The notes under the pieces: model-generated
Seen by the model: the letters and a program-made list of their open reading frames with translations, nothing else
Told to the model about the DNA's origin: nothing
Database searches by the model: none
Part shown: piece by piece, positions 25,727 to 63,025 of the stretch
Position numbering within the stretch: the first letter of the stretch is position 1
Layout: the number at the start of each line of letters is the position of its first letter
Assembly: GCA_021731365.1 (NCBI GenBank)
Contig: JAKFXL010000016.1
Span: 124,001 to 188,000 of the forward strand
DNA length: 64,000 nt
Direction of reading: 5' to 3'
DNA from: Gammaproteobacteria bacterium
GTDB lineage: Bacteria; Pseudomonadota; Gammaproteobacteria; Tenderiales; Tenderiaceae
Position numbers and translations under genes: made by a program

Positions 25727-26389
25727 ATGAAAAAACTACTGTTGGTGCTGTCCTTGGTTGCATGGGTAAACCCCGCTTACTCTACAGTCATCAAGTCCAA
25801 TATTACTGGTGCTGATATGGCGGGCATCAATGTAACGGCATATTTTGCAGGCGGCGGATCTGAAACTGCTACTTGGGTTACTACCAGCACAGATGGAACC
25901 CCAGCTTATCAAGAAGGGTATGCGGGTGGCGCGTTTGGTGCCGGGTGGTCGTTGACCCAGCAGGGTGAAACATTTGGGCAATTTGGACCTGGAAGTCAGT
26001 TGTTAGGGGTTTGGACACTGAATAATACGTCAGGCAATTCTCTTATGAAAATCGCTATCGATGCTCTGATGGCAGATATTGTCTTTGATAATATGTTTGG
26101 CGCTGAAGAGACCCCAGGTTCTGGTCCAGGACGTGAATTTACACCTGGTCTGACAAATGCACCGGGTTCATTTGCGTATAGTAATGTGTATAGCGCACCG
26201 GACCTGTATGGTTCGTTGACCCTTGATTGGGGTGTGACAGGGCTTGCTTCAGGCAACACCTTCCAGTTTATGGCTGATACCGATGCGATTCCAGAACCCG
26301 CTACAATATTGTTATTTGCTGCAGGCCTCCTTGGCCTAGCCGGTACACGCACTAAAAGACAGCTGCCAACTATTAAAAGTGAGGTTTAA
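25727..26389 (+). CDS. PEP-CTERM sorting domain protein
   Basis: This 220-residue exported protein has a signal peptide (KKLLLVLSLVAWVNPAYS). The C-terminus has the full PEP-CTERM signal: PEPATILLFAAGLLGLAG followed by the basic tail TRTKR, recognised by an exosortase in the inner membrane. The body is Gly/Thr-rich, beta-like, without Cys, and of unknown function. No exosortase gene is in the window, so the enzyme must be encoded elsewhere. The lasso-type precursor starts only 4 to 10 bases after its stop, so the two share a transcript. Confidence 0.9.
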   Translation: MKKLLLVLSLVAWVNPAYSTVIKSNITGADMAGINVTAYFAGGGSETATWVTTSTDGTPAYQEGYAGGAFGAGWSLTQQGETFGQFGPGSQLLGVWTLNNTSGNSLMKIAIDALMADIVFDNMFGAEETPGSGPGREFTPGLTNAPGSFAYSNVYSAPDLYGSLTLDWGVTGLASGNTFQFMADTDAIPEPATILLFAAGLLGLAGTRTKRQLPTIKSEV

Positions 26390-26393
26390 TATA

Positions 26394-26570
26394 ATGATAA
26401 TGGCGACTAATGATGTGGTTTATAACGGTGATGAATTGGTATCAAAAAAATCTTACCGTAAACCAGAATTCAAAAAAGTAGGTAGTCTGGCAGAGTTGAC
26501 CCAAGGATTTGCAGGCAGCGTGCCTGATGAACAAGGCGGTCAGACAAAGCGTAACCCGTTCTTGGGTTAA
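26394..26570 (+). CDS. Lasso-peptide-type RiPP precursor
   Basis: This 58-residue precursor is read from ATG 26394 behind GAGG; ATG 26400 and GTG 26379 are alternatives. The leader ends YRKPEFKKVGSLAELTQ, which fits the lasso leader rule Y-x2-P-x-L-x3-G-x5-T-x with Tyr -17, Pro -14, Phe (for Leu) -12, Gly -8 and Thr -2. The predicted 21-residue core starts at base 26505: Gly1-Phe-Ala-Gly-Ser-Val-Pro-Asp8-Glu9, then QGGQTKRNPFLG. Gly1 could be joined to Asp8 or Glu9, giving an 8- or 9-residue ring, with bulky Arg16, Asn17 and Phe19 as possible plugs. The gene follows the PEP-CTERM gene and precedes an HPr-kinase-like gene. Maturation proteins are found at 51-63 kb. Confidence 0.82.
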   Translation: MIMATNDVVYNGDELVSKKSYRKPEFKKVGSLAELTQGFAGSVPDEQGGQTKRNPFLG

Positions 26571-26577
26571 CAGTTTA

Positions 26578-26632
26578 CAGCTGGGTGTTGTGATAAAGAC
26601 ATATGAATGTCTAAGATTGTGTCACCCAGCTG
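26578..26632 (+). promoter_or_regulatory. Inverted repeat enclosing the kinase start codon
   Basis: CAGCTGGGTG (26578-26587) and CACCCAGCTG (26623-26632) are perfect 10-bp inverted arms around a 35-base loop that contains the kinase ATG (26607). A smaller hairpin, TAACCC/GGGTTA (26552-26569), lies just before, over the precursor stop. Together they could make the kinase less abundant than the precursor or protect the precursor mRNA. Confidence 0.5.
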
Positions 26633-27578
26633 GATTTTCACGACCCCCCTTCATGGTGTGCGGCTCTATCAGTCAGCTGATACCGATCGGTTAGATTGTG
26701 ATGGCGAATATATAGTATCTATAAAGCTCAGTTTCTCTGAGTGTTTTGTCCCGACACAGCAGAAATCGATTTGGCGTCTCTCAACGCAAGGTGAGCGATA
26801 TAGCAGTGTTGTTGAGCTGTTTGATGATCCAACAGGAAAATTATTGCACATTGAGTGTCAAGGCACAGGGTCGTTTCAATACCAGGGCAATGAGATCAAT
26901 GTTGCATGGCGAGATGAGGGTACCAGCTTTGAGCATTACCTTCAGACAGTCGGACTGAGTTTGTGGCTGGAAATGCGCGGGATACTGTGTATTCATGCCA
27001 ATGCAATTGAAACCGAGCGTGGAGTCATTGGGATAATAGCCCCAAGTCAAACAGGCAAAACAACATTAACTGCAGCACTTGCAGTGCGTGGCATGGGCAT
27101 GATGAGCGATGACATGATGGCCATACATAAAACTACGGAGGGGCTAAAGGTCTTTCCCGGTTGGCCTCAAGTGAGAATGTGGCCAGAGGTAGCCCAGCAT
27201 TTTGTGAAAGATATTGAAACTTTACAACGTGTTCATCATCGCTTTGAAAAGCGAATAGTGGAATCCGGCACCCAAAGCGAACTTCGTTTCTCAAGTAAAA
27301 GTGGCCGGTTAAAGAGGCTTTATCTGTTGGATAGGACGGATAGCAACGATTCGGAGATAAGGATAGAACAGCTTTCAGCATCAGAGTCGATGATAGTGTT
27401 GTTACAGAATAGTATGTTGGCAGATGCATACAGGTCACTGAATGTTGAAAAAGATAGATTAGACAGGCTTGCATCAATGCTTGAGTCTGTAGAGATAAAA
27501 CGGATTACTTACCCCAGTGGCAAAGAGCATCTGGTTAATATTTGTAAAAGCATTGAAGCAGATGTGAAAACAATTTAG
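26607..27578 (+). CDS. HPr-kinase-like protein next to the lasso precursor
   Basis: This 323-residue protein has a Walker A loop (APSQTGKTT, about residues 144-152) and an Asp-Asp pair (SDDMMAIH, about 166-170), as in HPr kinase/phosphorylase C-terminal domains. The N-terminal 120 residues are beta-rich and not HprK-like. HprK-like kinases occur in lasso clusters, where a paeninodin-type kinase phosphorylates the C-terminal Ser of the precursor, and also beside EPS/PEP-CTERM loci. Here the core ends in Gly, so that exact reaction is impossible; Ser5, Thr14 or another substrate must be considered. No PTS HPr protein is encoded nearby. The kinase fold call is strong, the substrate is unknown. 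Confidence 0.75.
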   Translation: MSKIVSPSWIFTTPLHGVRLYQSADTDRLDCDGEYIVSIKLSFSECFVPTQQKSIWRLSTQGERYSSVVELFDDPTGKLLHIECQGTGSFQYQGNEINVAWRDEGTSFEHYLQTVGLSLWLEMRGILCIHANAIETERGVIGIIAPSQTGKTTLTAALAVRGMGMMSDDMMAIHKTTEGLKVFPGWPQVRMWPEVAQHFVKDIETLQRVHHRFEKRIVESGTQSELRFSSKSGRLKRLYLLDRTDSNDSEIRIEQLSASESMIVLLQNSMLADAYRSLNVEKDRLDRLASMLESVEIKRITYPSGKEHLVNICKSIEADVKTI

Positions 27579-27914: not shown

Positions 27915-29327
27915 ATGCATAACTCCTCAAATGGCATGATCCTTCCCCATCGGTCCAAACTGGCATTTGTTTTTAAAATGTCAGATGGCATCATCATCTT
28001 CCTGGTTTTATTAGTGGCACTTTTTGCTCGTGGAATTGCTGTGGAAAATCAGTACATGCTTGCAGCGTTACTGGTGGTTATCTGTTTTGCCTTTGTTGGC
28101 AGTGAGTCAGGCCTTTACCGTTCGCAACGAGGTAGTTCACTATCACAACAGATATGGCCTGTGCTGGTGGCGTGGGGTATCACCGTATCAATACTCTCCG
28201 CGTTAGCCTATTTTTTAAAGTCCTCTGCTGATTACTCACGTGTTGTGGTTGGATTTTGGTTCGTTGCCGCACCAACACTGCTCATTTTGTGGCGCTTAAC
28301 GGTACGTAGCTTGCTCTCCCACTATAGATCAAAAGGGTACAACACCCGTTCTGTGGCGATTGTTGGCGCTGGTGCCGTTGGCCAACGTATTGGCCAGGTA
28401 ATTAAAGAGACGCCCTCTTATGGATTAGATTTAAAAGGTTATTTTGACAACCGCAAAGGTGATGATGGGCGGGTTGCTAAAAACCTGGCCGCGCCAATTT
28501 TGGGTGATTTTGATGAGTTAATCCGACGTGCCAAAGAGGGCAAATATTACCTCATATATATCGCCATCTCCATGAAGGGCGAAGAGCACATCGTCAAGTT
28601 GATATCAGAGTTATCAGATACTACCGCTTCGGTACATTTAGTCCCCGACTTTTTAATGTATGACCTCCTGCACTCACGCTGGATCAACCTAGGGCCAGTG
28701 CCTACCGTTAGTATTTACGAATCTCCCTTCATGGGGCTTGATGGATGGCTAAAGCGCATTGAAGACGTTGTGCTCTCATCGCTCATACTCACTCTTATAG
28801 CTATCCCTATGCTCTTCATTGCAGCCGGTGTAAAACTAAGCTCCTCTGGTCCGGTCCTGTTTAAACAGCGCCGCTATGGAATGGATGGACGACCGATAAA
28901 AGTCTGGAAATTTCGTTCGATGACAGTGTGCGACGATGGCGATAACATTGTGCAGGCCAAAAAATGTGATGTGCGTATCACACCTTTTGGCGCATTCCTG
29001 CGTCGTACCTCGTTAGATGAACTGCCGCAATTCATCAATGTACTAACAGGTGAAATGTCAATCGTAGGGCCGCGCCCACATGCAGTCGCCCATAACGAAG
29101 AGTATCGCAAACTCATTTCAGGCTACATGCTACGGCACAAAGTAAAACCTGGAATTACAGGCTGGGCACAAGTGAACGGCTGGCGCGGTGAAACAGACAC
29201 ACTGGATAAGATGGAAAAACGGGTTGAGTACGATCTTCACTACATACGTAACTGGTCTTTGTGGTGGGATATAAAAATAGTATTTCGTACTATTTTTACA
29301 GGCTTTTCGGGTAAAAGTGCCTATTAA
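27915..29327 (+). CDS. Undecaprenyl-phosphate sugar phosphotransferase (WcaJ-like)
   Basis: This 470-residue polyprenyl-phosphate transferase starts EPS repeat-unit assembly by moving a sugar phosphate (usually glucose-1-phosphate) onto undecaprenyl phosphate. It has four N-terminal membrane helices, a CoA-binding-like Rossmann domain (SVAIVGAGAVGQRIGQ), a fifth membrane segment, then the catalytic domain with KVWKFRSM, RTSLDELPQFINVL, EMSIVGPRPH and VKPGITGWAQVNGWRG. Length and layout are typical. It has its own upstream region and is followed by rmlD after 180 bases. Confidence 0.92.
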   Translation: MHNSSNGMILPHRSKLAFVFKMSDGIIIFLVLLVALFARGIAVENQYMLAALLVVICFAFVGSESGLYRSQRGSSLSQQIWPVLVAWGITVSILSALAYFLKSSADYSRVVVGFWFVAAPTLLILWRLTVRSLLSHYRSKGYNTRSVAIVGAGAVGQRIGQVIKETPSYGLDLKGYFDNRKGDDGRVAKNLAAPILGDFDELIRRAKEGKYYLIYIAISMKGEEHIVKLISELSDTTASVHLVPDFLMYDLLHSRWINLGPVPTVSIYESPFMGLDGWLKRIEDVVLSSLILTLIAIPMLFIAAGVKLSSSGPVLFKQRRYGMDGRPIKVWKFRSMTVCDDGDNIVQAKKCDVRITPFGAFLRRTSLDELPQFINVLTGEMSIVGPRPHAVAHNEEYRKLISGYMLRHKVKPGITGWAQVNGWRGETDTLDKMEKRVEYDLHYIRNWSLWWDIKIVFRTIFTGFSGKSAY

Positions 29328-42682: not shown

Positions 42683-43918
42683 TTATATTTTTGACCAGCT
42701 ACGTCCTCTGAAAATAACCCTTATTAATGAAAAAATCCTTATTGGTATATTGATAAATCCGGGTGCATAACAGACATTATTCCACACCCATCCAGGCAGC
42801 CGGAGATAGTAATATCTTTTTCTATATATTTTTTTTAGACTGAATGTATTGTTGTTATTTTTTGGATATGTGAGGTTTATAATTCGTTGGTAGTTATCTT
42901 GTGCCACTTTTGGTGTGGAAAATTTGAATGGCCAAATTGTGTTCATGAGTGAGTGACTCATTAGTAGATATGTCATGAATGGTGTTTCTAAATGGCTTGA
43001 TTTCGCTGTGTTTGCCCAGTCATCCCAGTTGATTTCATTTAATCGTTGAGAAACCAACGTAGAGAAGTCAGCTAGTTGCAGCAATGAAACTTCACCTTGA
43101 ATAAACTCCCTCCTCGGCAGCAATGCATGTGCAGTATTTAATAAGACTCTATCTTGCACGGATAGTATAGATGTATTGGAATTTTCCAGTGTGGCTTCAA
43201 TTTTATTTTTCCATGCTTGTTCTGTTGGAACAACTCTTCCTGCTTGACCATATGAAACATTAAAGTGTATTTCTATAATGACATTGGTAATCGGGTGGCG
43301 ATATGCGGGAATCTGATGATGACGTATGTCCGTAGCTAAGCCATTCAAGGCCATTCCTGGATCGAACATTTCTGTATAGCCCTGTGTGATGAGTATGGCT
43401 TTACATTTTTCGATGTGTTCAGGATGAACTAAGATGTCGAGATCCCCCATTACTCGTGCGCCGGGATCTCCATAATAATTATCACAAAATGTTGCAGCAC
43501 CTTTTAGCAGCAGGCTATTTATATTTTGTTTTTCAAATTCCGCCAGAAGGTTAATTAATCCATCTTTAAGTGTATTATTACGTTTAAGGTTGTTTTGATA
43601 GGCTTTTGTAATAATGCTCTGTATTGCGGTGGGGAGATTAGAAAACAGGTCATGCTGATTCAGTCTTACGTACAGTAGGGGTGTGCATCGTTCTGTGCCT
43701 GATAGTTGCAATATGTTGATCCAGATGATCTGCTCTTTACCTATCGCGCTATGTATTTGTAATAATGTGTTCTCATTTAAGGTTGGAGATAGAAATAGTG
43801 CAAGTAACGCGTAGTCGTTTGATAGTGGTATGGTTTCTATCAGATGATGGTTAAATTGGTGGTTTATAGTTTTCACGTTATGACTATTGATGTTGTCGAT
43901 TACTTGAGATGAGTGCAA
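42683..43918 (-). CDS. Nucleotidyltransferase family protein (PF14907-like)
   Basis: This 411-residue protein contains LLAEFEKQNINSLLLKGAAT and the nucleotidyltransferase-like GDPGARVMGDLDILVHPEH (Asp-x-Asp), followed by an IEIHFNVSYG segment. Proteins of this family appear both in exosortase-linked EPS loci and in lasso-peptide clusters together with HprK-like kinases. The substrate is unknown. The start is a TTG at 43918 inside the upstream gene (35-base overlap), so a later start is possible. It is the last gene of the minus-strand EPS operon. Confidence 0.7.
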   Translation of the reverse strand: MHSSQVIDNINSHNVKTINHQFNHHLIETIPLSNDYALLALFLSPTLNENTLLQIHSAIGKEQIIWINILQLSGTERCTPLLYVRLNQHDLFSNLPTAIQSIITKAYQNNLKRNNTLKDGLINLLAEFEKQNINSLLLKGAATFCDNYYGDPGARVMGDLDILVHPEHIEKCKAILITQGYTEMFDPGMALNGLATDIRHHQIPAYRHPITNVIIEIHFNVSYGQAGRVVPTEQAWKNKIEATLENSNTSILSVQDRVLLNTAHALLPRREFIQGEVSLLQLADFSTLVSQRLNEINWDDWANTAKSSHLETPFMTYLLMSHSLMNTIWPFKFSTPKVAQDNYQRIINLTYPKNNNNTFSLKKIYRKRYYYLRLPGWVWNNVCYAPGFINIPIRIFSLIRVIFRGRSWSKI

Positions 43919-45290
43919 TTGCTAGTAGAATAAAAAAATAGCTGGCATTTGCAGGGATATGGAAATTGAATTCAACTACTGAGTGTATCAATATGGCGTT
44001 GATGCCAAATATTGAACCAAAAAGAAGACCTGCTATTTTAGGATTAGGTCTCCTTTTTATACCTTTTATAATTGTTATTATGAATAGTAATATGCTGCTT
44101 CCTAGCAGAGCCAGGCCAATAACGCCTTGGTCTGTGAATAATTCAAGGTAGTCGTTATGAACCCGTTTTGACATGCTGGATGTGCCAAGCTCTGGGTTTT
44201 TGTATTGGTGAAATATGTATGGATAGGTTCCTGCGCCACTGCCTGTTAACGGATAGTCCTGGCTTAGGCTGTAAGCAGTTGTGAGCATGTGATCACGACC
44301 ATTGGCACTGAATCCATATTTTTCAAATCTGTCTGCTAAGCTGCCTATTCCGAAAAGTAAGATAACTATTGCAATAACAGTGGCCATAACAGGAAGGAAG
44401 CTTAATGATTTATATTTTCTGCCTTGAAATAGTAGGAAGAGGCTCAGTGTCAATATAAATGCGGCTAGAAATGCGCCATTGCCTCCCCTTGATGCTGAGA
44501 AGAGTAGCGCTATGAGCATGGCGCATAAAAATACTATATAAAGTGCTCGTGATGACATAACAAAGCTTAATATTTTTTCAAGATGACGTTTTTCATTGCT
44601 CTGTTCTTTAGCCAACATAATGATTCCGATTCCTATAGGAATCGTCATGGCCATCAGTGCGGCAAAATGGTTGCGATGGGTATATGTTCCTCGAGTTGCT
44701 TCATTCCAAGGGGTACCCCAGGGTGGAATAGGTTCGTTTATACTGAATTGACCAGCAGTATAGTAATTAAGTAGAGAGTATAAGGCTTGGACAACTCCGA
44801 CTATAAATATGATGAAGGCTAGATGTTTGATGCGTTTATAGGTATTGCAAAGCACTAATAATAAAAAAAACATTGCCACATAACTACTGTATCTAAGTAG
44901 TTCTATGCTTGATATAGATGTTTCAACACTAAGGCTGTTTGTGTGAGAGGCATCATTGATACTGGTGTAAATATTTAGCTTGGCAGCGGCTGGATTTAAA
45001 AAAGCTAGCCATGTTGTTGGTAATGGTAATGTTTGTATATATGTGTACATTAACCATATGCATAGCAGTATAAGTGAGATTTTGTTGGTGTTAATGATAT
45101 GGGGAAGGGTGCGGTTATAGTGCCACTGTTGAAATAGCCAGATGGATAGTAATAAAAATATACTGCTGATAAATGGTGCATGTTCCCAAAATAGTTCTCC
45201 GCCATGGGGAAAAGGTAGTAATGCAATGATTGCCAACAGGCAATAATAGAGTGAGCTATATGGTTGTTCTGTTGAATGGTCATGAGTCAT
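43884..45290 (-). CDS. O-antigen ligase-like membrane protein
   Basis: This 468-residue protein has about 11 to 12 membrane helices and the Wzy_C/WaaL motif region GTYTHRNHFAALMAMTIPIG with a following periplasmic loop (GSGAGTYPYIFHQYKNP, RVHNDYLELFTDQGVIG). That H-N-D-x-L motif is typical of exosortase-associated EPS polymerases and O-antigen ligases. It is the second polymerase/ligase candidate in the window besides the gene at 32944. It overlaps both neighbours. Confidence 0.85.
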   Translation of the reverse strand: MTHDHSTEQPYSSLYYCLLAIIALLPFPHGGELFWEHAPFISSIFLLLSIWLFQQWHYNRTLPHIINTNKISLILLCIWLMYTYIQTLPLPTTWLAFLNPAAAKLNIYTSINDASHTNSLSVETSISSIELLRYSSYVAMFFLLLVLCNTYKRIKHLAFIIFIVGVVQALYSLLNYYTAGQFSINEPIPPWGTPWNEATRGTYTHRNHFAALMAMTIPIGIGIIMLAKEQSNEKRHLEKILSFVMSSRALYIVFLCAMLIALLFSASRGGNGAFLAAFILTLSLFLLFQGRKYKSLSFLPVMATVIAIVILLFGIGSLADRFEKYGFSANGRDHMLTTAYSLSQDYPLTGSGAGTYPYIFHQYKNPELGTSSMSKRVHNDYLELFTDQGVIGLALLGSSILLFIITIIKGIKRRPNPKIAGLLFGSIFGINAILIHSVVEFNFHIPANASYFFILLAIALISSNRQHQ

Positions 45291-46006
45291 GGGTGTACTG
45301 CACTTTCTTTTTTACGCATGGCGTTGTTAAGTAGGTCTTTATGCCATTTATGAGTGATGAGTGGTGAAAGGTGTTCGCTCCAGTTGTTTTGCACGGTCGC
45401 TGTGATGAGGGCGTAGATGATTTTGGGTTGGTGTTGTAGTGCGTGTTCGATAATATTGATAGTTTTTTCTTTTATTGTATCGGGCAGTATATTCCACTGT
45501 GCTATTCCAAGCGGAATGATCAGTTGTTGGCTGACTTCTTCATAGGGTTCGAAGTATATGGCTAGTTCCAGTGCTTTAATAAAGTCGGCTGTGTGGCTGT
45601 TATCAGCTGCGTAGCTTTGCGCCAATTTTGCCCAGGCAACCCCCCAGGTTGGGCGTCTTTCTAATGCTTGTTTTAGGTTGTGGGTAGCCAGGGCTTGATA
45701 CTGTTGTTGATCCTGGATTGAGGCCTCAGGGATATTGGCCTGTAGTGTGGCTAGCCGTGCCAGGTCCATGTAGAACTCTGCGTTGTTGCTGTTGAGTATG
45801 ATGGCCTTTTGTAAACGGCCCCAGGACTCTTTGGCTGACTGTTGATCCAGGGTGTTGGCGTTGGTTTCCCATTGGCTGATGTTGTGCCGGGGTGTGATGG
45901 CAAGGATTTCTGCATATCCCCATCGCGCTGACCAGAGCATCAGTATGACGCTGATGAGCGCTGCTGGTAGATAGAGCCAGCGGTAGGGTGAGGTGTTGGT
46001 GTGCAT
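45287..46006 (-). CDS. Membrane-anchored TPR-like protein of the EPS operon
   Basis: This 239-residue protein has one N-terminal membrane helix (WLYLPAALISVILMLWSA) and then helical repeats: AKESWGRLQKAIILNSNNAEFYMDLARLA, ALERRPTWGVAWAKLAQSYA, ALELAIYFEPYEE. It resembles TPR proteins placed beside the EPS polymerase and may scaffold the assembly complex. The stop overlaps the polymerase gene start by four bases. Function is inferred from context. Confidence 0.65.
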   Translation of the reverse strand: MHTNTSPYRWLYLPAALISVILMLWSARWGYAEILAITPRHNISQWETNANTLDQQSAKESWGRLQKAIILNSNNAEFYMDLARLATLQANIPEASIQDQQQYQALATHNLKQALERRPTWGVAWAKLAQSYAADNSHTADFIKALELAIYFEPYEEVSQQLIIPLGIAQWNILPDTIKEKTINIIEHALQHQPKIIYALITATVQNNWSEHLSPLITHKWHKDLLNNAMRKKESAVHP

Positions 46007-46009
46007 CTA

Positions 46010-46717
46010 TTACAGCTTTAATGCGGGGGCATTGGCGAGCTTGGCTGCCTGGGTGTCGCCGATGATTTTACTGGCGGCGTTGATGCCTTGCCCTAAGTTG
46101 GGTGGGCGGTACTCCAGGTTGTGGCAGTCTGATGCCATTAAATCGACTTTGCCTTCTGTGAGTAACTCTATTGCCAGCTGTTTGGCCTGTTTGCCAAAGC
46201 CACCGAGGATACTTGAGCTGGTGATCTGTATGGGGCAGCCAGCGTTTAAAAAGGGTTGTAGCTTGGCAGGGTTTTTCTGGAATGCACGGTTTCTTTCGGG
46301 GTGTACGAGTATGGGGGTTATCTGTTTTGTGCGTAGCCACTGAATCAGGTTGAGTGTGCCTGATGGAATGTCGTTGGGTGGCAGCTCTAGCAGGAAACAC
46401 TTTTGGTCATTCCATGTGCCAAGCCAGGGCAGGGTGTCTGTTTCTATCATCTGTATTATTTGCGGGCCAATGTGTACTTCGGCGGCGAGATGTAGTTTTA
46501 TGGGGATCTCTTCTGCTTCGACTGTGATACGAAACATTTCAAACAACCGGGTAAGTTCTTTGAGGTTGTTTTCAAAGCGGTTGGCCTGTATGTGAGGGGT
46601 AATAACTTGTGTTGTTACCCCTTCTTGAACTGCAATCTGCAACATCTTAATGGCGTCATTAATGTTCTGCACGCCGTCATCCACATTGGGAAGTATGTGG
46701 CTGTGTATGTCAATCAT
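46010..46717 (-). CDS. CpsB/CapC-type PHP tyrosine-protein phosphatase
   Basis: This 235-residue PHP-domain metalloenzyme contains MIDIHSHILPNVDDGVQNI (metal-binding H-x-H), VITPHIQANRF, LAAEVHIGP, PILVHPERNRAFQ and LMASDCHNLEYRPPNL. It dephosphorylates the Tyr-rich tail of the EPS kinase encoded directly upstream. No low-molecular-weight phosphatase is present, so this is the counterpart of the Wzc-like kinase here. Confidence 0.9.
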   Translation of the reverse strand: MIDIHSHILPNVDDGVQNINDAIKMLQIAVQEGVTTQVITPHIQANRFENNLKELTRLFEMFRITVEAEEIPIKLHLAAEVHIGPQIIQMIETDTLPWLGTWNDQKCFLLELPPNDIPSGTLNLIQWLRTKQITPILVHPERNRAFQKNPAKLQPFLNAGCPIQITSSSILGGFGKQAKQLAIELLTEGKVDLMASDCHNLEYRPPNLGQGINAASKIIGDTQAAKLANAPALKL

Positions 46718-46749
46718 GGCGGCAGTAGTTGCATGGTTGTATTGAGCTA

Positions 46750-49023
46750 TCAGGTGGTTTTGTTGTCGTTTTGACTTTCCGGTGTGCCGTAATAGCTGTT
46801 CGCATAGTAATAGTGGCTGCCATAGGCCTCCATACGTTTGGTGTCCACCTGGGTTAAAACAGTGCCTGTTACCTGTACGTTGCCTTTATGCAGCCGGTTA
46901 AGTGTCTCTTGTGTCATTTGGATTTTTGTTGATTCGGCTTTTACTGCAACAATAACGCTGTCTACCAATTGGCCTACAACGATGGCGTCACTGACGGCGA
47001 GTACAGGAGGGCCATCAAGAACGATGTAGGCGTAGACGGTTTTTAATTTTTCCAGTAGCTGTTTAAAGGCGTCTGATGATAGAAATTCAATAGGATTATG
47101 GACAAAACTCCCTGCGGGCATGACGTAGAGTTTGCTCCCTTCGTCACCAATCTGGGTAACGGCATTTTCTAATAGGGTATCGTTATTGATTGCCTGATCG
47201 GATACACCGGGGAAGGATGCGATTCCCATGTATTTTGCGATGGAGGGTTTACGCAGGTCTATTTCCAGCAACAGGGTACGATCCAGATGGCTTAGTGATG
47301 CAGCCAGATTGGTGGCAAGTGTTGATTTTCCTTCCATTGCGGTGGCAGAGGTGACCAGGATTGTTCTTGGTGGGTTGTTGATGTTGGAGAACAGTAGTCC
47401 GGTACGGATGTTATTAACACTTTCAGAGAAGGGTGAGCGGTTGTCTGAAAGTACTTGTAGTTCCGGGGTGACCGTTTTTTTGTTTTTTTCTACCAGCGGG
47501 ATGATACCCAGTGATGGGAGTTGCAGTTTATCTTCAAGGTCTTCCACCGTTTTGAAGGTGTTGTTGAGGTGCTCACGCAGGAAGGCAAAGAGGATTCCTA
47601 TAAATAGCCCCAGTACTACGGCAATGACAATGAAGCGTGGTTTATTGGGTTTGAATGGGATTGTGGGTACCAGGGCAACGTCAATGATCTGTACGTTTGA
47701 GGCGCTATATTTTTCGCTGATGTTGGCTTCCTGATAGCGAATTAAAAACGATTCATATGATTTTTGGTTGTTGAGAACTTCACGCTCCAGGCTGGCGAGT
47801 TCAAAGCCGCTGCCTCTGATACCACCGAGGTCATTTTTCTCTTTGTTGATGAGGGCGATGATCTCGTTTTCCTGAGTGAGTGCGGCTTGATACTCTTTGC
47901 GTATGCTGTCGACAACCTTATCAACCTCAGACTCAAAGTTCTGTTTGGCCTGGTTGAGATCAGCCCGGGCGGCAATCATTTTTGGGTGAAGGTCACCATA
48001 ACGCTCTGAAAGATCTTTTACGCTGCGTGAGAGTTTGGTCATCTCCTGTTCGAGTGTTTGAACAGAAGGTTTGTTAAGCATGGGGCTAAGGGTGGTGTAG
48101 TCACCATTTTCATATTTGATCTTGATCTGGTTATAACGGATCTCTGCTTCGCTACGTTTGGTTTGTGCGCGAATCAGCTCGGCGGAGAGGGTGTTGAGAC
48201 GGGTGCCCGCCAGTTGCTGTTGTTGTGTGGTGTCGATCATTGAATGGCTTTTCTGGAATGCCTGCAGTGCAGCTTCGGAGTCTTTGAGTTTTGTCCGAAG
48301 ATCAGCAAGTTGATCATTGAGCCATGTGGAAGTCTCTTTGGCACCACTGCTACGTGATTCAAGGCCGTACTCTACGTAAGATTCGGCAATGGCATTGGTT
48401 ATTTCGGCGGCCAGCTTTGGGTTTGAGTCTTCATAGCTGATGTTGATTATTTCGCTCTGTTTGCCACCTTCAACGGTGAGTCCTGCCTGAATCTTGCCCG
48501 CCAGTTTTATACGTAGTGTGTGGTCGCTTGTATCGGGTGCAGACTCCTCTTGTTTATCAAGGGGCAGCCACTCTTTAACCTGTTTTGCCAGATCAAACTC
48601 TTTAAGTGTCTGGATAAAGGCAAGGGAGTGCTCACTATCAGGTTTGCCCAGCTCACCGGCCCTGTGGCGTTCGACTAGATTTAATTTGTCGACCGCTTTT
48701 TGGGCGATTCGTTGTGAACGGATGATTTCGTACTGTGTTTCATAAAAGAGGAATACCAATGCGGTGTTAACATATTGATCGCGGGTATCAAGATTGGGTT
48801 GCATCGGGTCTGCAACCAGTTTGGTTTCTGCTTTGTAGATGGGAGTACTGCTTAATGCGACCAGTACGCCAATAATCAGGCAGACCACAGTGATGTTGAT
48901 GATGCCCAATTTGTGCCGTTTGATAACGTGCCAATACTGGGCAAGATCAATGCTCTCCTCTTCAGCGGAGGGGATGTAATTAAGCATGGGTGTAGAGTCG
49001 GGTGTGTTGGCTCTGTTTTTCAT
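46750..49023 (-). CDS. Wzc-like polysaccharide copolymerase and tyrosine kinase
   Basis: This 757-residue inner-membrane protein has an N-terminal Wzz domain (SIDLAQYWHVIKRHKLGII), a long periplasmic coiled coil, a second membrane helix (FIVIAVVLGLFIGILFAFL) and a cytosolic BY-kinase domain with Walker A TSATAMEGKSTLATNL (about residues 557-572), LLEIDLRKPS and YIVLDGPPVLAVSD. It ends in a Tyr cluster (AYGSHYYYANSYYG) for autophosphorylation. It controls chain length and export with the Wza-like protein encoded 2 bases upstream. Confidence 0.93.
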   Translation of the reverse strand: MKNRANTPDSTPMLNYIPSAEEESIDLAQYWHVIKRHKLGIINITVVCLIIGVLVALSSTPIYKAETKLVADPMQPNLDTRDQYVNTALVFLFYETQYEIIRSQRIAQKAVDKLNLVERHRAGELGKPDSEHSLAFIQTLKEFDLAKQVKEWLPLDKQEESAPDTSDHTLRIKLAGKIQAGLTVEGGKQSEIINISYEDSNPKLAAEITNAIAESYVEYGLESRSSGAKETSTWLNDQLADLRTKLKDSEAALQAFQKSHSMIDTTQQQQLAGTRLNTLSAELIRAQTKRSEAEIRYNQIKIKYENGDYTTLSPMLNKPSVQTLEQEMTKLSRSVKDLSERYGDLHPKMIAARADLNQAKQNFESEVDKVVDSIRKEYQAALTQENEIIALINKEKNDLGGIRGSGFELASLEREVLNNQKSYESFLIRYQEANISEKYSASNVQIIDVALVPTIPFKPNKPRFIVIAVVLGLFIGILFAFLREHLNNTFKTVEDLEDKLQLPSLGIIPLVEKNKKTVTPELQVLSDNRSPFSESVNNIRTGLLFSNINNPPRTILVTSATAMEGKSTLATNLAASLSHLDRTLLLEIDLRKPSIAKYMGIASFPGVSDQAINNDTLLENAVTQIGDEGSKLYVMPAGSFVHNPIEFLSSDAFKQLLEKLKTVYAYIVLDGPPVLAVSDAIVVGQLVDSVIVAVKAESTKIQMTQETLNRLHKGNVQVTGTVLTQVDTKRMEAYGSHYYYANSYYGTPESQNDNKTT

Positions 49024-49025
49024 TG

Positions 49026-49631
49026 TTAGAAAAAGCTCTCTTCTACCGTGATGATATCACCGGGCCGAATGGGTGTGGCAAGTTCAACACGTTTGGCATT
49101 GCCTTTGTCTTCTTCATGGGCGAGGGTGATTTTGTTTTTTGATGCACGTTCAGAAAATCCGCCGGCCAGAGTGATAGCGATTTCCACGGTTAACCCCTCA
49201 CGGTAGTTATAACCACCGGGTTTCTTGACCTCACCGTTTACATAAAACTGCCGGTATTCGGTGATGGAGACGGTGACGGCTGGTTTTATCAGATAACCGT
49301 CAGCAAGTAACCGGGCTATTTTTTCTTCGGTTTGTGCGGTTGTTAGACCTTGTATCTGCACTTGACCAAGCAGTGGAACGGAGATGGTACCGTTAGTTGC
49401 GATGCGTGTTTTTACCAGGCTTAGGTCAGGCTCTCCAAAGACGGTGACGGAGATCTCATCATCTGCTGAGAGAGTATAGCCGTTTTTGCTATCGGCGCTG
49501 GCACTGTTGATAAAGAGGATCATGAGGATGATAGCAAACAGCATGTGTATCATGCCGAAATGTGCAGGTTGGTGCGGTTCTGCCAATGGCGGTTTAAGAG
49601 GAGCCTGAAAACAATGCAAGGTATTTTTCAT
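49026..49631 (-). CDS. Polysaccharide export protein (Wza/EpsE-like)
   Basis: This 201-residue protein has a Poly_export domain (YTLSADDEISVTVFGEPDLS, GTISVPLLGQVQIQGLTTAQ) and a SLBB domain (FYVNGEVKKPGGYNYREGLT). The hydrophobic segment MLFAIILMILFINSASA is a signal peptide without a lipobox Cys, so unlike E. coli Wza it is not an evident lipoprotein. It is also much shorter than Wza and lacks the C-terminal amphipathic helix; the separate barrel protein upstream may supply the outer-membrane pore. Confidence 0.9.
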   Translation of the reverse strand: MKNTLHCFQAPLKPPLAEPHQPAHFGMIHMLFAIILMILFINSASADSKNGYTLSADDEISVTVFGEPDLSLVKTRIATNGTISVPLLGQVQIQGLTTAQTEEKIARLLADGYLIKPAVTVSITEYRQFYVNGEVKKPGGYNYREGLTVEIAITLAGGFSERASKNKITLAHEEDKGNAKRVELATPIRPGDIITVEESFF

Positions 49632-49976
49632 CTCTGGTTAATCCGCGTTCTAATAAAAAGCTATTTCAATAGTAGTGGAGCCTTTGGTTAGATCAGATCC
49701 GTCCATCTGTCAAAGGGGTGAAGAGTAGCCAGCTGTTGTGTCAAATAATTTTTGATGCCAATGAACGGAGCAGGGCCACACGTATCAGCTCTTGCTATTT
49801 ATAAACACGTTATTGTCAGGTGACTGTCGCCTTATAGCAACAAAAAGCCGCAAAATCAGACGAGTTTTCTCTGTTGGCGATTCTACTATATAAATGGTTA
49901 AAGATAAATAGATAGGCTGGCTTTTGATGACAGGTCATATTATTTTCTGGTCGATGCCGGTGAGGTTGGTTTTTGT
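49632..49976 (-). other. Leader region between epsL-like gene and export gene
   Basis: These 345 bases hold no gene. On the minus strand two TTGACA boxes occur (complement of 49739-49744 and 49709-49714); the second is followed 17 bases later by the weak -10 TAACCA. A separate promoter for the export-kinase genes is plausible. I searched by eye for a c-di-GMP riboswitch, JUMPstart or ops element and saw none. Confidence 0.5.
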
Positions 49977-51182
49977 TTAATTGCCAAATTGTGCTTGTGC
50001 CCCAAACATGATTGCGTTTGAGGTGAAGTCAAAGCTGTTGAGGTCGGAATCCCTGGCGGTATGATTATAGGTGGCGCTGAGCCGTAGCCAGGGGAGCAGG
50101 CTGTATTGGGTCTGAAGCCTTAAGTTTAGGCGGTTCTCACTGATTGAGTTGAGGTCATCGGTTTTTGCGCTGGTGTAAAGTGCGCCGACAATAAATGCCA
50201 TGCGTGGTGTTGCCATGTGTGTTATTTCGGTGTGGATGTGGTTTTGGATGTAGGCTCTGGAATTGACTTGTAGTGACTCCTGGGTGTCACGAATAGCGCC
50301 AATGGTGATGTTTGTATAACTGTTTGGCTTCCAGGTACCATCCAGCCGCAACATGAGGATGGAGGTGTCTTTGTATAGGTTGTTGTCATAGTTCCTGTTG
50401 AGCGCACCAATCTGGAACAGGGCCGTGCTGATGGTGCTGATGTCCCAGGTGATGCCGGTGAGGAACCTCTGCTCATTACTGCTTGGATCGACGGTGGGAT
50501 TGGCATTTTGATAGTCGATGTTTGTGGTGCTGAGCTCAAAAGGTATACGGGTTTTAGGGGCCACACGGTAGTAAAACATGCCGGTGATGGTTGTGGAGTC
50601 CAGATCAAGAAACTGCTGGTTGTTATTGGTGTAGCGGCGCTGTTTATGGTTGAGTTTGGTAATGAGCTGACCCCGGTTTGAGGGGTTACCATAGGAGAGT
50701 GTGATTTTTGCGTAGTTTTCCCGCCAGCGGTTGGTGGTAGTGGTGAGATTGGCGGCGACGTTGTTGTCGTCCGGGGTGTAGTGGTCGCGAATCTGGCCCA
50801 TCTCATATTCACTGTTCAGGCGAATGCTGTGGTCAAGCAGCAGTTTGGTCGTCAGGCGGTGGTCGTTGTAGTTGAGTATATTTTGATCCTGATACTGCCC
50901 GTAGGCACCTTTGTAGGTCAGGTCAAGTGAGTGTTTACCAAAGCCCCATAATAAGGGGAGCGTGGGTTTTATGAGTAGCAGCAGGTCGCTCTGTTCGTTC
51001 TGTGCTGGGGCACGTCTGACATTATCTTCATATTGGAGTTGTGTGGCGAGCTGTGGCTGAAAACCGGTACTGCCGGTGATTGCCAGTACGGGGTGCATAA
51101 CAAACAAGGGTAGCAGGCCGATGAGTTTGATGAGGTGGCCGTTTGTCTGTCTGTGTATCATGCTTGCTGTCCTGAGCCGCAT
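49977..51182 (-). CDS. Outer-membrane beta-barrel EPS protein (EpsL-like)
   Basis: This 401-residue exported protein has a signal peptide (LIKLIGLLPLFVMHPVLA) and then many amphipathic strands: PQLATQLQYEDNVRRAP, LDLTYKGAYGQYQDQN, FYYRVAPKTRIPFELSTT, ending in a terminal Phe-like strand SNAIMFGAQAQFGN. This is the layout of the EpsL barrel proteins of exosortase-associated EPS loci, thought to serve in secretion across the outer membrane. It is the first gene of the minus-strand EPS operon. Confidence 0.8.
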   Translation of the reverse strand: MRLRTASMIHRQTNGHLIKLIGLLPLFVMHPVLAITGSTGFQPQLATQLQYEDNVRRAPAQNEQSDLLLLIKPTLPLLWGFGKHSLDLTYKGAYGQYQDQNILNYNDHRLTTKLLLDHSIRLNSEYEMGQIRDHYTPDDNNVAANLTTTTNRWRENYAKITLSYGNPSNRGQLITKLNHKQRRYTNNNQQFLDLDSTTITGMFYYRVAPKTRIPFELSTTNIDYQNANPTVDPSSNEQRFLTGITWDISTISTALFQIGALNRNYDNNLYKDTSILMLRLDGTWKPNSYTNITIGAIRDTQESLQVNSRAYIQNHIHTEITHMATPRMAFIVGALYTSAKTDDLNSISENRLNLRLQTQYSLLPWLRLSATYNHTARDSDLNSFDFTSNAIMFGAQAQFGN

Positions 51183-51314: not shown

Positions 51315-53000
51315 ATGAAGTTTAAATATTTCTTAACCTATCTTACCCCTCATCGATCGGTCCTGTTATTGGCGGCGCTGTTTATGCTGGGCGAGAGTGC
51401 GGTGGCACTGTTGATCCCGTGGATTGCGGGCCAGTTTGCCATGGGCGTTGTGGGTGATAGCAGTGCATGGGGGCTGGAGAGTGGCCAGATTCTATTGCTG
51501 CTGTTGCTGGTATTTTTGTGTCAGGCGCTGTTCCGATTTTTGAATAGCTATTTGATCACCCGGAGTGGCGCGGAGATCCTGGCGCAGCTGAGTTTGCGTC
51601 TATACGAACATCTGCAGTCGTTACCCATGGGCTACTTTCATGCAACCAAGCGTGGCCAGGTGTTGGCGCTGTTGAGTAATGATGTGGCGATGTTGAGCCA
51701 CTTTGTGACAGGCACCTTGATTGGTCTTGTGCCCATGGTGATGACGCTGGTGGGGGCGATTGTCTTGATTGCACTGATTGATTGGCAGATTGCGTTGCTG
51801 ATCCTGCTGCTGACCCCGCTCTTTTATATCACCCTGAAGTTGATGAGCAGAAAGATTCGTCCGGTCTCGTCGGCCTTGATGCAGCGGCAGGCGGACCATC
51901 TGTCCGTATTTGAGCAGAGTCTGAGCCTGTTATCGCTGATCAAGGCGTTTGTGCGCGAGCCACTGGAGCGGCAGCGGTTTGCATCATCCACCCAGGCGGT
52001 GCTGAAACTGCGATTGCAGCAGCTGCAAATGCAGTCGGTTCTGGCCCCGGTTGTGCAGCTGTTGGCGTCACTGGGGATTTTGGCGGTGCTCTGGCTGAGC
52101 AGTCAGCATCTCACATCAGGCACACTCACCGCCGCTGAGCTGGTGGCCATTCTATTATATGGACTACTGTTTGCCCGGCCGATGAGTGGTTTGGCAAATC
52201 TGTACGGTGATATCCAGCAGGCCAGGGGTGGTGCGGAGCGGCTGCTGGATATCTTTTCCGTTGCCCCGGAACCGATGCAGAGTGGAGCGCTTGAATTTGG
52301 GCTTGGGCTTGGGATCGGCCCCGTCCGTGGTGAGATCGAGTTTCACGACATCCATTTCCACTATCCCGGTGCTGAGCCACTCTTTAGCGGGCTCAATTTT
52401 CAGATTCGCGCCGGTGAAACCGTGGCGCTGACCGGCGTGAACGGTGCCGGAAAGAGCACTTTGATACAGATGTTAATGCGCTTTTTTGATCCACAGAGCG
52501 GGGTGATCCGGCTCGACGGCACCGACATCCGTACCGTGACGCTGGCAAGTTTGCGGCGACAGTTTGGTCTGGTGGCCCAGCATGTGCTGCTATCGGATGT
52601 GAGCATTGCGGACAATATCGCCTACGGCAAACCGGGTGCCAGCCAGGCAGAGATTGAGGCGGCGGCCCGCACCGCTAATGCCCACGGTTTTATTGCCGCG
52701 CTGCCGTTGGGGTACCAGACGATGGTGGGGGAGCAGGGCGTGCGGCTATCGGGCGGGCAGCGGCAGCGGCTGGCATTGGCCCGGGCACTGCTGATCCAAC
52801 CGGCTATTTTAATCTTTGATGAGGCAACCTCGATGTTCGATCCGGAGGGTGAGGCGCTGTTTCTGCAAGAGTGCCACGAGCAGTTGCGGAGCCGTACCGT
52901 TATAATCATCACCCATCGTCCCGCCACCCTGGCGCTGGCAGATCGGGTGATGCAGCTTAAAGATGGGCAGTTAATAGAGGTGAAAAATGACAAATTATAA
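51315..53000 (+). CDS. ABC exporter (permease-ATPase), probable lasso peptide exporter
   Basis: This 561-residue half-transporter has six membrane helices in residues 1-310 and an ATPase domain with GVNGAGKSTL (about 374-383), LSGGQRQRLALARAL (about 478), ILIFDEATSMFD and the His-switch ITHRP. There is no peptidase C39 domain, which fits a lasso exporter (McjD role) because the leader is removed by the B2 protein. The gene overlaps the PqqD-like gene by 14 bases. The match to type is strong; the cargo is inferred from the adjacent B1 and B2 genes. Confidence 0.82.
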   Translation: MKFKYFLTYLTPHRSVLLLAALFMLGESAVALLIPWIAGQFAMGVVGDSSAWGLESGQILLLLLLVFLCQALFRFLNSYLITRSGAEILAQLSLRLYEHLQSLPMGYFHATKRGQVLALLSNDVAMLSHFVTGTLIGLVPMVMTLVGAIVLIALIDWQIALLILLLTPLFYITLKLMSRKIRPVSSALMQRQADHLSVFEQSLSLLSLIKAFVREPLERQRFASSTQAVLKLRLQQLQMQSVLAPVVQLLASLGILAVLWLSSQHLTSGTLTAAELVAILLYGLLFARPMSGLANLYGDIQQARGGAERLLDIFSVAPEPMQSGALEFGLGLGIGPVRGEIEFHDIHFHYPGAEPLFSGLNFQIRAGETVALTGVNGAGKSTLIQMLMRFFDPQSGVIRLDGTDIRTVTLASLRRQFGLVAQHVLLSDVSIADNIAYGKPGASQAEIEAAARTANAHGFIAALPLGYQTMVGEQGVRLSGGQRQRLALARALLIQPAILIFDEATSMFDPEGEALFLQECHEQLRSRTVIIITHRPATLALADRVMQLKDGQLIEVKNDKL

Positions 53001-53256
53001 GATTCAGGACGATGTCTTCCTGCAAAAAGTGGTGAATGAGACGGTGATTCTGGCCCCGGAAACCGGCAACTACTTCTCCCTTGATGAGGTGGGTAGCCGC
53101 ATGATTGAGCTGTTCAGGCAGACCGGTTCGGTAGAACAGACCGTTGCCGCCCTGGTGCAGGAGTACGATGCGCCGCAGGTGGATATCGAACGTGACCTGC
53201 TGGCGCTGCTGGAGGATATGGCCCAACAGGGTGTTGTTGAGAAAATTGAATCTTAA
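52987..53256 (+). CDS. PqqD-like RiPP recognition protein (lasso B1)
   Basis: This 89-residue winged-helix RRE protein contains VFLQKVVNETVILAPETG, YFSLDEVGSRMIELFRQTGS and QVDIERDLLALLEDMAQQGV. Stand-alone PqqD-like proteins bind the leader peptide (Tyr and Pro of the YxxP motif) and deliver it to the B2 protease and the cyclase. It overlaps the exporter gene by 14 bases and the protease gene by about 26. Confidence 0.88.
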   Translation: MTNYKIQDDVFLQKVVNETVILAPETGNYFSLDEVGSRMIELFRQTGSVEQTVAALVQEYDAPQVDIERDLLALLEDMAQQGVVEKIES

Positions 53257-53701
53257 ACTTGGCCGCCTGTTTAGCCTGCCGGCCAAAAGCTACCCACTGC
53301 TGCTAGAGGCGTGGCTGACCCTGGCCTGGGTCGATCTGGCTATCCGTTTTCTTCCCTATGCCCGCTGGCGTCACTGGCTGGAGGGCAGCGCGTCGATCCA
53401 GAGCGCTGATCAGCCAACAGCGGATATTGATGGATTAATCCACACCTCAGAACAGGTTGCCAGACACCACTACGCCGCCATGAACTGTCTGCGGCGCACC
53501 GTGGCACAGAAGATGATGCTGGCGCGGCGCGGCATATCAGGCCAAGTCCACATCGGGGTGAAAAAAGAGCAGGCCGGTTTTGCCGCCCACGCCTGGTTGA
53601 GCTATCAGGGAGAGGTATTAAACGATTCGGCAGATGTAACTGAGCGCTACGTGGAGCTGGAGCGGGCGCTCTGGCGTAGCGTGAAGTTTTTTACGGATTA
53701 G
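53231..53701 (+). CDS. Lasso peptide leader protease (B2, transglutaminase-like)
   Basis: This protein of about 156 residues has the lasso B2 pattern: YPLLLEAWLTLAWVDLAIRF, then the transglutaminase-like catalytic part with Cys in YAAMNCLRRTVAQKMMLARR, His in GFAAHAWLSYQGEVLND and a following acidic residue as the third member. It cuts the leader after the Thr-x pair. The frame is open upstream to 53144, but GTG 53231 (or nearby TTGs) gives the right size. Precursor and cyclase genes are not adjacent but lie at 26.4 kb and 61.2 kb. Confidence 0.85.
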   Translation: MLLRKLNLKLGRLFSLPAKSYPLLLEAWLTLAWVDLAIRFLPYARWRHWLEGSASIQSADQPTADIDGLIHTSEQVARHHYAAMNCLRRTVAQKMMLARRGISGQVHIGVKKEQAGFAAHAWLSYQGEVLNDSADVTERYVELERALWRSVKFFTD

Positions 53702-57092: not shown

Positions 57093-57144
57093 GCTTTTTT
57101 CCCTTCGTCGGTTTCTTCGTGGGCTTGGCCGCTGCCGTGATCTT
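57082..57144 (-). repeat. Gene-end repeat, copy at RhuM/helicase junction
   Basis: The last about 20 codons of RhuM (ITAAAKPTKKPTKGKK) match the last codons of the methyltransferase gene at 58131-58198. The most conserved part is a 23-base block, 21 of 23 identical. Each copy ends over the start codon of the next gene. Confidence 0.65.
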
Positions 57145-58134: not shown

Positions 58135-58198
58135 GCGCTCTTCCCCTTTATCGCCTTTTTGGTGGGTTTAGTCTTGGCCGCCGCCGTCATCTTGGTAT
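58131..58198 (-). repeat. Gene-end repeat, copy at methyltransferase/RhuM junction
   Basis: This encodes the methyltransferase tail MTAAAKTKPTKKAIKGK and overlaps the RhuM start. It pairs with the copy at 57082-57144. The shared basic tail may help both proteins bind DNA or each other, or may simply be left from a duplication at the gene junction. Confidence 0.65.
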
Positions 58199-61153: not shown

Positions 61154-63025
61154 CTACTGGCCAAAAACAGCGGCGTATTTTTGAAACCAGATCTGGGCCA
61201 TCAGGGCGTAGAGCAGGTTGACGTTGAGTGAGCTGGCGGGATTTTTAACCACGGATTCAAAGACGCCAAGCAGCTGCTGATTGTTGATCAGCCCCATCTC
61301 CTGGAGCCGGGTATCGGAGAGGATGGCGCGCACGGTGTGGTGCTGGTCGCGAATGATCTGGCCAAAAAAACCATCAAATATAATCTTCTTTTTGTTCCAG
61401 CAGACGCTGTCGGGCAGCCGTCCGGTCATGCTGCGGCGCAGTAGCCACTTGGGGTAGTTGTGGCGCAGCCAGAGGTCATCGGGGATGGCAAAGCTGAATT
61501 CGAGCAGACGCCGGTCAAAAAACGGGTGGCGTACCTCGATGCCAAACCCAGCGGCGGCTTGATGGTAGGAGCGTACCGAATTGATGGTGGATGTATTTGT
61601 CCACGCCTGATAACGGGCCTGTAGGGCGGGGTTGGTGAAGCGCGGGGCGTTTTTATCTGGGGTGTCGTTGCTGTTTTGCATCAACATCTGTCGGGCGGGT
61701 TCTGCCATCCAGGAGGGGAGGGTGGCGCTGGCGGGGCGGCCCAGTGCGGTGCGTAGGCCCCGTTTGATCGGGGTGGGGATCAGCGGTGTTACAAACAGGT
61801 GTAACAGTGTATTTAACAGCGGTAGCTGCATCTCTCTGCAACCGCTGACGGCCTCTTGAATGGCCCGCAGGTCACCACGCCGCAGGCGCTGTGAGTAGGT
61901 GAGGCTGTGGCCCCAGGTCATCTCATCACCACCGCTGCCGGTGAGCAGAACATCGGCACCTATCTCTTTGAGTAGTTTCATCTCGTCCAGATAGCGTGGG
62001 GAGCAGACGGTGCCGGGGTTGTCGAGTGTGGGGGCGTAGAGTTCCCGGAAGTCGAGTGCCAGATGCTGTTCTGCGGCCATGTAGTGGATGTGCGGTAGGT
62101 CGAGGTGCTGCTGCATCTCCTTGATGCGGTCGCTTTCGTCACAACTGGCGGTTTTCTGGTAGGTGTGGGAGATGACGGCGAGCTGTTGCGGGGTTGATTC
62201 CGTAAGCTGTTTGGCCAGGGCGGTGACGGAGGTGGAGTCCATGCCGCCGCTCATCTGTGTGGCGATGGTGGTGGCGGTTGAGCCCATGCGGTCGCTGACG
62301 TTGCGGGTGAGTATGGCTGTGAGCTGCGCTTCATAATCACCAATGGTGGGGTGGCGGATGGTGAAACTGGGGTCCAGTTGCCAGTAACGCTGGATGCGAA
62401 TGCTGTTGGCATCGGCCAGCAGTGAGTGCGCGGCGGGCAGCAGTTCGATACCTTCAAACATCGAACGGTGTGGGTCGGGCCAGCCACTCAGCCAGCAGGC
62501 CAGGGCGTATCGGTTGAGCTGTGCGGTGACGGCACGCTGTTGCAGCAGTTGGCTCCCGTCGGTGGCTATATATATAGCGTCACCCACCTGGGTATAGCTG
62601 AGGGTTCGCATATTCATCACATCCCGTGCGGCAAACAGGGTGCGCTTTTCTCTGTCCCAGAGGGCAAAGGCAAAATCGCCGATCAGGTGCGCCGGGCAGT
62701 GCTGGCCCCACTGGCGGTAGGCGGCGAGGATGAGCTCGGCGTCCGTGGGTTGGGCGGAGAGGGGCGTGGTGTGGAGCTGTTGTAACAGCTCTGGCCGGTT
62801 ATCGATACGGGCATCACAGATCAGCAGGTATTGGCCACAGGCGGAGAGCAGCGGGGCGGCGGCCAGGGGTGAGAGCGGCGCGCTGTGGTTGAGCTGTTGT
62901 GAAAAGGCCAGCGGCCCCTGGATGTGGGTGGTGCTGTTATCTGGCAGTGAGCGGGTGAAGGTATCAACAACATCGGCGCTTAAGGTTGCACCGCGCCAGT
63001 CAATGATCGCCGCAATGCCCGACAT
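61154..63025 (-). CDS. Asparagine-synthase-like lasso macrolactam synthetase
   Basis: This 623-residue protein has an N-terminal glutaminase-like domain and a C-terminal ATP-pyrophosphatase domain with TQMSGGMDSTSVTALAK (about residues 255-272). True asparagine synthases and the exosortase-linked amidotransferases start MCGI with catalytic Cys2; this one reads MSGIAAIIDWRG, so glutamine cannot be used. That is typical of lasso cyclases (McjC role), which adenylate the ring Asp/Glu and join it to Gly1. It lies 5 bases after the ABC ATPase gene and is separated from the B2 gene by the restriction island. No other function fits as well, given the exporter, B1 and B2 genes. Confidence 0.85.
   Translation of the reverse strand: MSGIAAIIDWRGATLSADVVDTFTRSLPDNSTTHIQGPLAFSQQLNHSAPLSPLAAAPLLSACGQYLLICDARIDNRPELLQQLHTTPLSAQPTDAELILAAYRQWGQHCPAHLIGDFAFALWDREKRTLFAARDVMNMRTLSYTQVGDAIYIATDGSQLLQQRAVTAQLNRYALACWLSGWPDPHRSMFEGIELLPAAHSLLADANSIRIQRYWQLDPSFTIRHPTIGDYEAQLTAILTRNVSDRMGSTATTIATQMSGGMDSTSVTALAKQLTESTPQQLAVISHTYQKTASCDESDRIKEMQQHLDLPHIHYMAAEQHLALDFRELYAPTLDNPGTVCSPRYLDEMKLLKEIGADVLLTGSGGDEMTWGHSLTYSQRLRRGDLRAIQEAVSGCREMQLPLLNTLLHLFVTPLIPTPIKRGLRTALGRPASATLPSWMAEPARQMLMQNSNDTPDKNAPRFTNPALQARYQAWTNTSTINSVRSYHQAAAGFGIEVRHPFFDRRLLEFSFAIPDDLWLRHNYPKWLLRRSMTGRLPDSVCWNKKKIIFDGFFGQIIRDQHHTVRAILSDTRLQEMGLINNQQLLGVFESVVKNPASSLNVNLLYALMAQIWFQKYAAVFGQ

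Follow-up and report, generated by a model that had tools for sequence, protein, structure and literature searches.

HPr-kinase-like proteins are encoded beside the lasso precursor in the paeninodin, ThcoK and SyanK systems, and the target of these kinases, as of the pseudomycoidin kinase, is described as a Ser at the C-terminus of the precursor (PMC8498205; PMC10368454). In the pseudomycoidin system a kinase and a nucleotidyltransferase are linked to the lasso cluster, and the phosphate is reported to be followed by the addition of hexoses (PMC8498205). According to a rumen survey, most candidates have a conserved Ser in their C-terminal region (PMC7533575). The published account of BsfK from Bradymonas sediminis differs in that the kinase phosphorylates Ser3 of the core, in a precursor that ends in Asp, and is stimulated by the leader-binding protein B1 (PMC10368454). 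Among the matches listed for the open-licence literature, there was no published description of a lasso peptide-kinase system linked to PEP-CTERM proteins and exopolysaccharide (EPS) loci.

Such a combination is found in a 64,000-nucleotide stretch of a gammaproteobacterial genome of the Tenderiaceae (hereafter the window; Table 1). The original prediction, made from the sequence alone, placed a HPr-kinase-like protein next to a lasso core that lacks the C-terminal Ser, and this was confirmed by the open reading frame, by the match of the precursor to NF033521 (lasso_leader_L3; 21.9 bits, cut-off 19) and by the Phe-Leu-Gly end of the core. The protein encoded at 26607–27578 is a divergent HPr-kinase-like protein whose kinship to the named HprK families is remote. 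It scored 29 bits against the NCBIfam family HprK_rel_A (TIGR04352), below the cut-off of 200, and 18 bits against HprK_rel_B, and the Pfam HPr kinase domain gave no match in the reading frame up to an E-value of 0.1. The best matches of profiles built from the kinase and its relatives were solved HPr kinases; profile A6 reached 3tqf with an E-value of 1.7e-4, profile A3, made of lasso-linked homologues, reached the same structure at 1.6e-8, and the remote profile matches of the kinase were 3tqf and 1jb1. Profile similarity also connects the kinase with lasso-linked HprK-like proteins, as it does the kinases of the paeninodin/ThcoK/SyanK type. The residues listed as conserved in BsfK and the known lasso kinases are H, three P-loop Gly, K, S/T and DD (PMC10368454). 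Two of these glycines are replaced by Ala145 and Gln148 in the window kinase, and H130, G150, K151, T152, D168 and D169 are present; His130, Gly150, Lys151 and Asp168-Asp169 are unchanged in 16/16 aligned kinases of the clade described below, and several members of that clade have Gly at the position equivalent to Gln148. A structure prediction made from two sequences had a mean pLDDT of 31.

Table 1. Lasso, kinase and EPS-related features of the window (positions counted from the first nucleotide of the window).
Feature	Coordinates	Strand	Basis
PEP-CTERM secreted protein	25727..26389	+	PEP-CTERM motif PF07589, 25.7 bits; conserved precursor neighbour
Lasso precursor, 56 aa	26400..26570	+	NF033521 above cut-off; 21-member family with a near-invariant core
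HPr-kinase-like protein, putative lasso kinase	26607..27578	+	323 aa; H130, P-loop A145-P-S-Q-T-G150-K151-T152, D168-D169
Undecaprenyl-phosphate glucose phosphotransferase (EPS initiating enzyme)	27915..29327	+	TIGR03023, 553 bits, above cut-off; conserved kinase neighbour
PF14907 nucleotidyltransferase, possible sugar-adding partner	42683..43918	-	143.9 bits, cut-off 31.2
ABC exporter (D)	51315..53000	+	PF00664 and PF00005; 40% identity with the exporter encoded in the compact G644 cluster
B1, PqqD-like leader-binding protein	52987..53256	+	PF05402, 66 bits; sole PqqD match in the genome
B2 leader peptidase (start approximate)	53219..53701	+	NF033537, 71 bits, above cut-off; PF13471, 67 bits, sole match in the genome
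C, lasso cyclase with GATase_7 and asparagine synthase domains	61154..63025	-	PF00733, 153 bits; PF13537, 74 bits

The precursor, which has a second in-frame ATG at 26394, combines a lasso leader with Thr at position -2, Gly1 and the acidic residues Asp8/Glu9 within positions 7–9, the features by which lasso precursors are recognized. Thr at -2 of lasso leaders is described as a known recognition residue for maturation (PMC10368454), and it places the start of the core at Gly, so that the numbering of Ser5 and Thr14 agrees with that of the original prediction. The core is GFAGSVPDEQGGQTKRNPFLG, and its candidate macrolactam acceptor is Asp8 or Glu9. Comparison of 21 precursors of the family showed Thr14 in 20/21 cores and Ser5 in all 21, although the pattern behind this count required Ser5; a separate search free of that requirement found Ser5 in 19/19 matches. 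Asp8, Glu9 and the final Gly21 are each present in 21/21 cores, in contrast to the C-terminal Ser that the kinases of paeninodin, ThcoK and SyanK are described as modifying (PMC8498205). Position 20 is Gln in 17 cores, Thr in three and Leu in one. In the leader, Ser29 of the window precursor is variable among relatives (Ser, Thr or Asn), and Thr34 (position -2) is invariant. Codon differences per codon pair amounted to 0.469 synonymous and 0.118 amino-acid-changing in the core, versus 0.406 and 0.291 respectively in the leader; at the amino-acid level, purifying selection on the core is strong.

The gap between the PEP-CTERM gene and the precursor start is about 11 bp and that between precursor and kinase is 36 bp, and because of these short gaps the three genes look like one operon. 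The genes B1, B2, C and exporter are all recognizable, and the lasso cluster is complete but dispersed over the window. A cluster devoid of maturation genes had been considered and was rejected, since B1/B2 lie about 25 kb and C about 34 kb from the kinase in the same window. The cyclase scored 312 bits against NF033535, below the cut-off of 525, with both domains present, and is 37% identical to the C protein of genome G644 (see below). An EPS locus occupies the space between kinase and exporter; it includes the sugar transferase at 27915, the PF14907 gene at 42683, and polymerase, VpsP-like, CpsB, Wzc-like, export and EpsL-like genes at 43884 to 51182. A MmeI-type restriction-modification island (53771–60932, with a MmeI-like protein, RhuM, a helicase and T5orf172) lies between B2 and C. 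In most relatives C is near B2 and the PEP-CTERM gene, versus its island-separated position in the window.

The same core is present in 19 genomes from nine genera and two families, in a total of 21 precursor copies. Among 95 relative genomes (the window's own included), a close kinase was found elsewhere only in G008, where it is 60% identical, the order PEP-CTERM, precursor, kinase is that of the window, and the core is identical at 20/21 residues. A search of the phylum with lasso kinases gave a match at 1e-8 in 127/398 genomes and pointed to G644, a member of another gammaproteobacterial family whose core differs at two residues and whose compact cluster has the order sugar transferase, exporter, B1, B2, C, PEP-CTERM, precursor, kinase. 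A precursor search of that family revealed 17 carriers among 295 genomes, in 7/52 genera. In a class-wide sample of 369 genomes the precursor was found only in the window's genome, plus a leader-only match in G236, and a search of plasmids with the precursor gave no match. Since the precursor and kinase pair with the same core recurs in 18 other genomes, the pairing is not due to chance. Three copies of the precursor, their cores identical, occur in G972 (including loci L153 and L161); one of them stands with a PEP-CTERM gene alone and no other lasso gene within the 19 kb fetched.

Kinase and precursor are neighbors in 17/19 carriers; in G936 and G769 the kinase is apart from the precursor and still beside the sugar transferase. 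In the family of G644, a profile of the kinase clade scored at least 341 bits in 17/295 genomes, with the next best at 72 bits, and these were the same 17 genomes that carry the precursor. Since the sequences behind this profile were kinases from precursor loci, the comparison is a test of absence elsewhere, and the kinases of G936 and G769, which lie outside the profile and away from the precursor, were nevertheless recovered by it. Related genomes are not independent observations, and the carriers span seven genera. From this joint presence and absence in the same 17 of 295 genomes, it is most likely that the kinase is part of the system of this lasso peptide. A tree of 78 rows, computed by a quick method and omitting the near-copies L098 and L160 and the broken L128, unites the 18 kinases included in one fully supported clade; the tree carries a long-branch warning, and this clade is the only part of it relied upon here. 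The placement of the clade beside other lasso kinases is weak. The original prediction proposed that grouping only with EPS-linked homologues would tell the possible targets apart. The kinases do group together, and nearly all of them stand in an EPS setting, but all are also in precursor-carrying genomes, so that the grouping does not separate the two options.

An HprK-like kinase and a PF14907 protein in one genome are a feature shared with the HprK-related kinase A system (TIGR04352). Membership of the window kinase in that system was rejected given its score of 29 bits, where the cut-off is 200, and its separate clade; the system is represented in the host by a separate locus, L054, and the HprK-related group that includes this second copy falls outside the 18-member clade. 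L054 (7608–8585 of the fetched locus; genome G000, contig C2, around 192006) is the host's second HprK-like gene and is followed by a PF14907 gene.

One of the closest likenesses is to BsfK, compared here by its published description (PMC10368454). Both systems have a lasso precursor that lacks the C-terminal Ser, a kinase, a nucleotidyltransferase, separate B1 and B2 proteins and a Ser in the ring region, and both kinases show the motifs H, GK[ST] and DD at matching spacing. They differ in the position of the Ser (Ser3 in the BsfK substrate versus position 5 here), in residue -2 of the leader (Ile versus Thr), in two P-loop positions (Gly/Gly versus Ala/Gln) and in the EPS and PEP-CTERM setting, which belongs to the system described here. 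The pseudomycoidin system, as described in PMC8498205, shares the link of a kinase and a nucleotidyltransferase to the lasso cluster, but its precursor has the C-terminal Ser, whereas here the PF14907 gene lies 2.6–20 kb away, outside the core operon.

The EPS setting itself is conserved. A PEP-CTERM homologue lies upstream of the precursor in 20/20 loci (the extra G972 copy included), and in a subset of 135 genomes it scored at least 160 bits in 7/7 precursor carriers. In the same subset it was found without the precursor in the non-carrier G874 (130 bits) and weakly in three other non-carriers. In the 20 kb fetched for the G874 homologue (L199, 9554–10282), neither the precursor nor the kinase nor any lasso gene is present. 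The exosortase PF09721 is present in 17/19 carriers. The kinase adjoins the EPS sugar transferase in 17/19 carriers, G936 and G769 included; the distance is 5.4 kb in one further carrier, and the contig ends too early in another. The suggested relevance of the PF14907 nucleotidyltransferase also held up, with such a gene at most 20 kb from the precursor in 15/19 carriers, a linkage that may concern either the peptide or no more than the EPS locus.

Taken together, we consider it rather probable that the window kinase is dedicated to a lasso peptide encoded in an EPS/PEP-CTERM locus and that it phosphorylates Ser5 in the ring. The kinase would transfer a phosphate from a nucleotide to Ser5 on the linear, leader-bearing precursor, a step in which B1 would assist; B2 would then cleave after Gln(-1), C would close the ring between Gly1 and either Asp8 or Glu9, and the product would leave the cell through the ABC exporter. 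Addition of a sugar to the phosphate, as reported for pseudomycoidin (PMC8498205), may be the role of the PF14907 protein. Phosphorylation of a ring Ser is plausible given the precedent of BsfK, which acts on core Ser3 with the aid of B1 in a core ending in Asp (PMC10368454), and the window would provide a second likely case. The rule on which the original prediction relied, that such kinases modify a C-terminal Ser, stands for the paeninodin type, but BsfK shows it to be too narrow. The candidate targets that it named, Ser5 and Thr14, are indeed hydroxyls of the core, and the 21 precursors favor the first of them; an additional or different target in the EPS locus may also exist.

Within the core, Ser5 is the best candidate phosphosite, by elimination rather than by proof. 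It is favored over Thr14 because it is kept in 21/21 cores versus 20/21, and because the loss of Thr14 occurs beside an intact kinase: in L154, Thr14 is replaced by Ala and position 13 is Ser, and the adjoining kinase retains H, GK[ST] and DD. The conservation of Ser5 is weakly informative, since most of the core is conserved. Phosphorylation in the lasso tail, at Thr14 or a hydroxyl near it, would agree with the tail-end modification described for the known lasso kinases other than BsfK (PMC8498205) and with the near-constancy of Thr14, as the L154 core would still offer a hydroxyl close by (Ser13); given that Thr14 is not strictly kept and Ser5 is, we regard a tail site as quite improbable. 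The protein might instead lack kinase activity and serve as a nucleotide-binding helper, such as a chaperone that assists the precursor during maturation. Ala145 and Gln148 stand where PMC10368454 names two conserved glycines of lasso kinases, but the invariance of the catalytic residues in the 16 clade kinases and the Gly that several clade members have at the position of Gln148 argue against it, making this reading very improbable.

A further explanation is that the kinase acts on another part of the EPS machinery, be it the sugar transferase, a sugar carrier or the PEP-CTERM protein, and that it adjoins the precursor through a shared EPS operon. The adjacency to the sugar transferase, kept even where the precursor lies elsewhere (G936 and G769), speaks for such a target. 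EPS sugar transferases of the type encoded at 27915–29327 are common, and yet among the 295 genomes the kinase clade is confined to precursor carriers; furthermore, the profile relatives of the kinase elsewhere are mostly in lasso clusters. A target outside the peptide is thus unlikely in our view, and phosphorylation of Ser5 is retained as the preferred reading.

Lasso peptides are usually regarded as variable secondary metabolites. The near fixation of this core would rather suggest a constant target or a structural role than an arms-race antibiotic, and its persistence over nine genera and two families, together with the one-to-one kinase and the PEP-CTERM protein in EPS loci, suggests that its function is a conserved one at the cell surface. 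More speculatively, and with little likelihood attached, the peptide could be a conserved non-antibiotic part of the EPS matrix, in which phospho-Ser5 would bear a sugar (added by the PF14907 protein or the sugar transferase) and the product, a glycan linked to the peptide or a primer for EPS, would be kept at the surface by the PEP-CTERM protein.

The end of the core was also compared in 45 other loci that encode a kinase together with C or B2, with precursors chosen from their leader motif and by visual inspection. A precursor candidate was found in 36/45 of these loci and none in the other nine (L045, L053, L056, L097, L098, L103, L127, L128 and L129). The core ends in Ser in 29/36 loci, several of which are close relatives, six of them from one genus. 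The remaining ends are Thr (L043 and L130), Arg (L064), Asn (L117 and L125), Pro (L126), and Val and Pro (L124). The six loci from one genus (L101, L102, L104, L106, L107 and L108, each from a different genome) share a conserved core ending in LTFS, and the order of kinase, B1, B2 and C is the same in all of them. L126, L127 and L129 (kinase ORFs at 7363, 7637 and 8031) form a small separate group with the P-loop GxSRxGKT and Glu-Asp; this group may be another type of lasso kinase lacking a C-terminal Ser target, its sole precursor (L126) ending in Pro. Finally, the lasso cluster of L124 contains two kinase genes as well as two precursors, one with a Val end and one with a Pro end.
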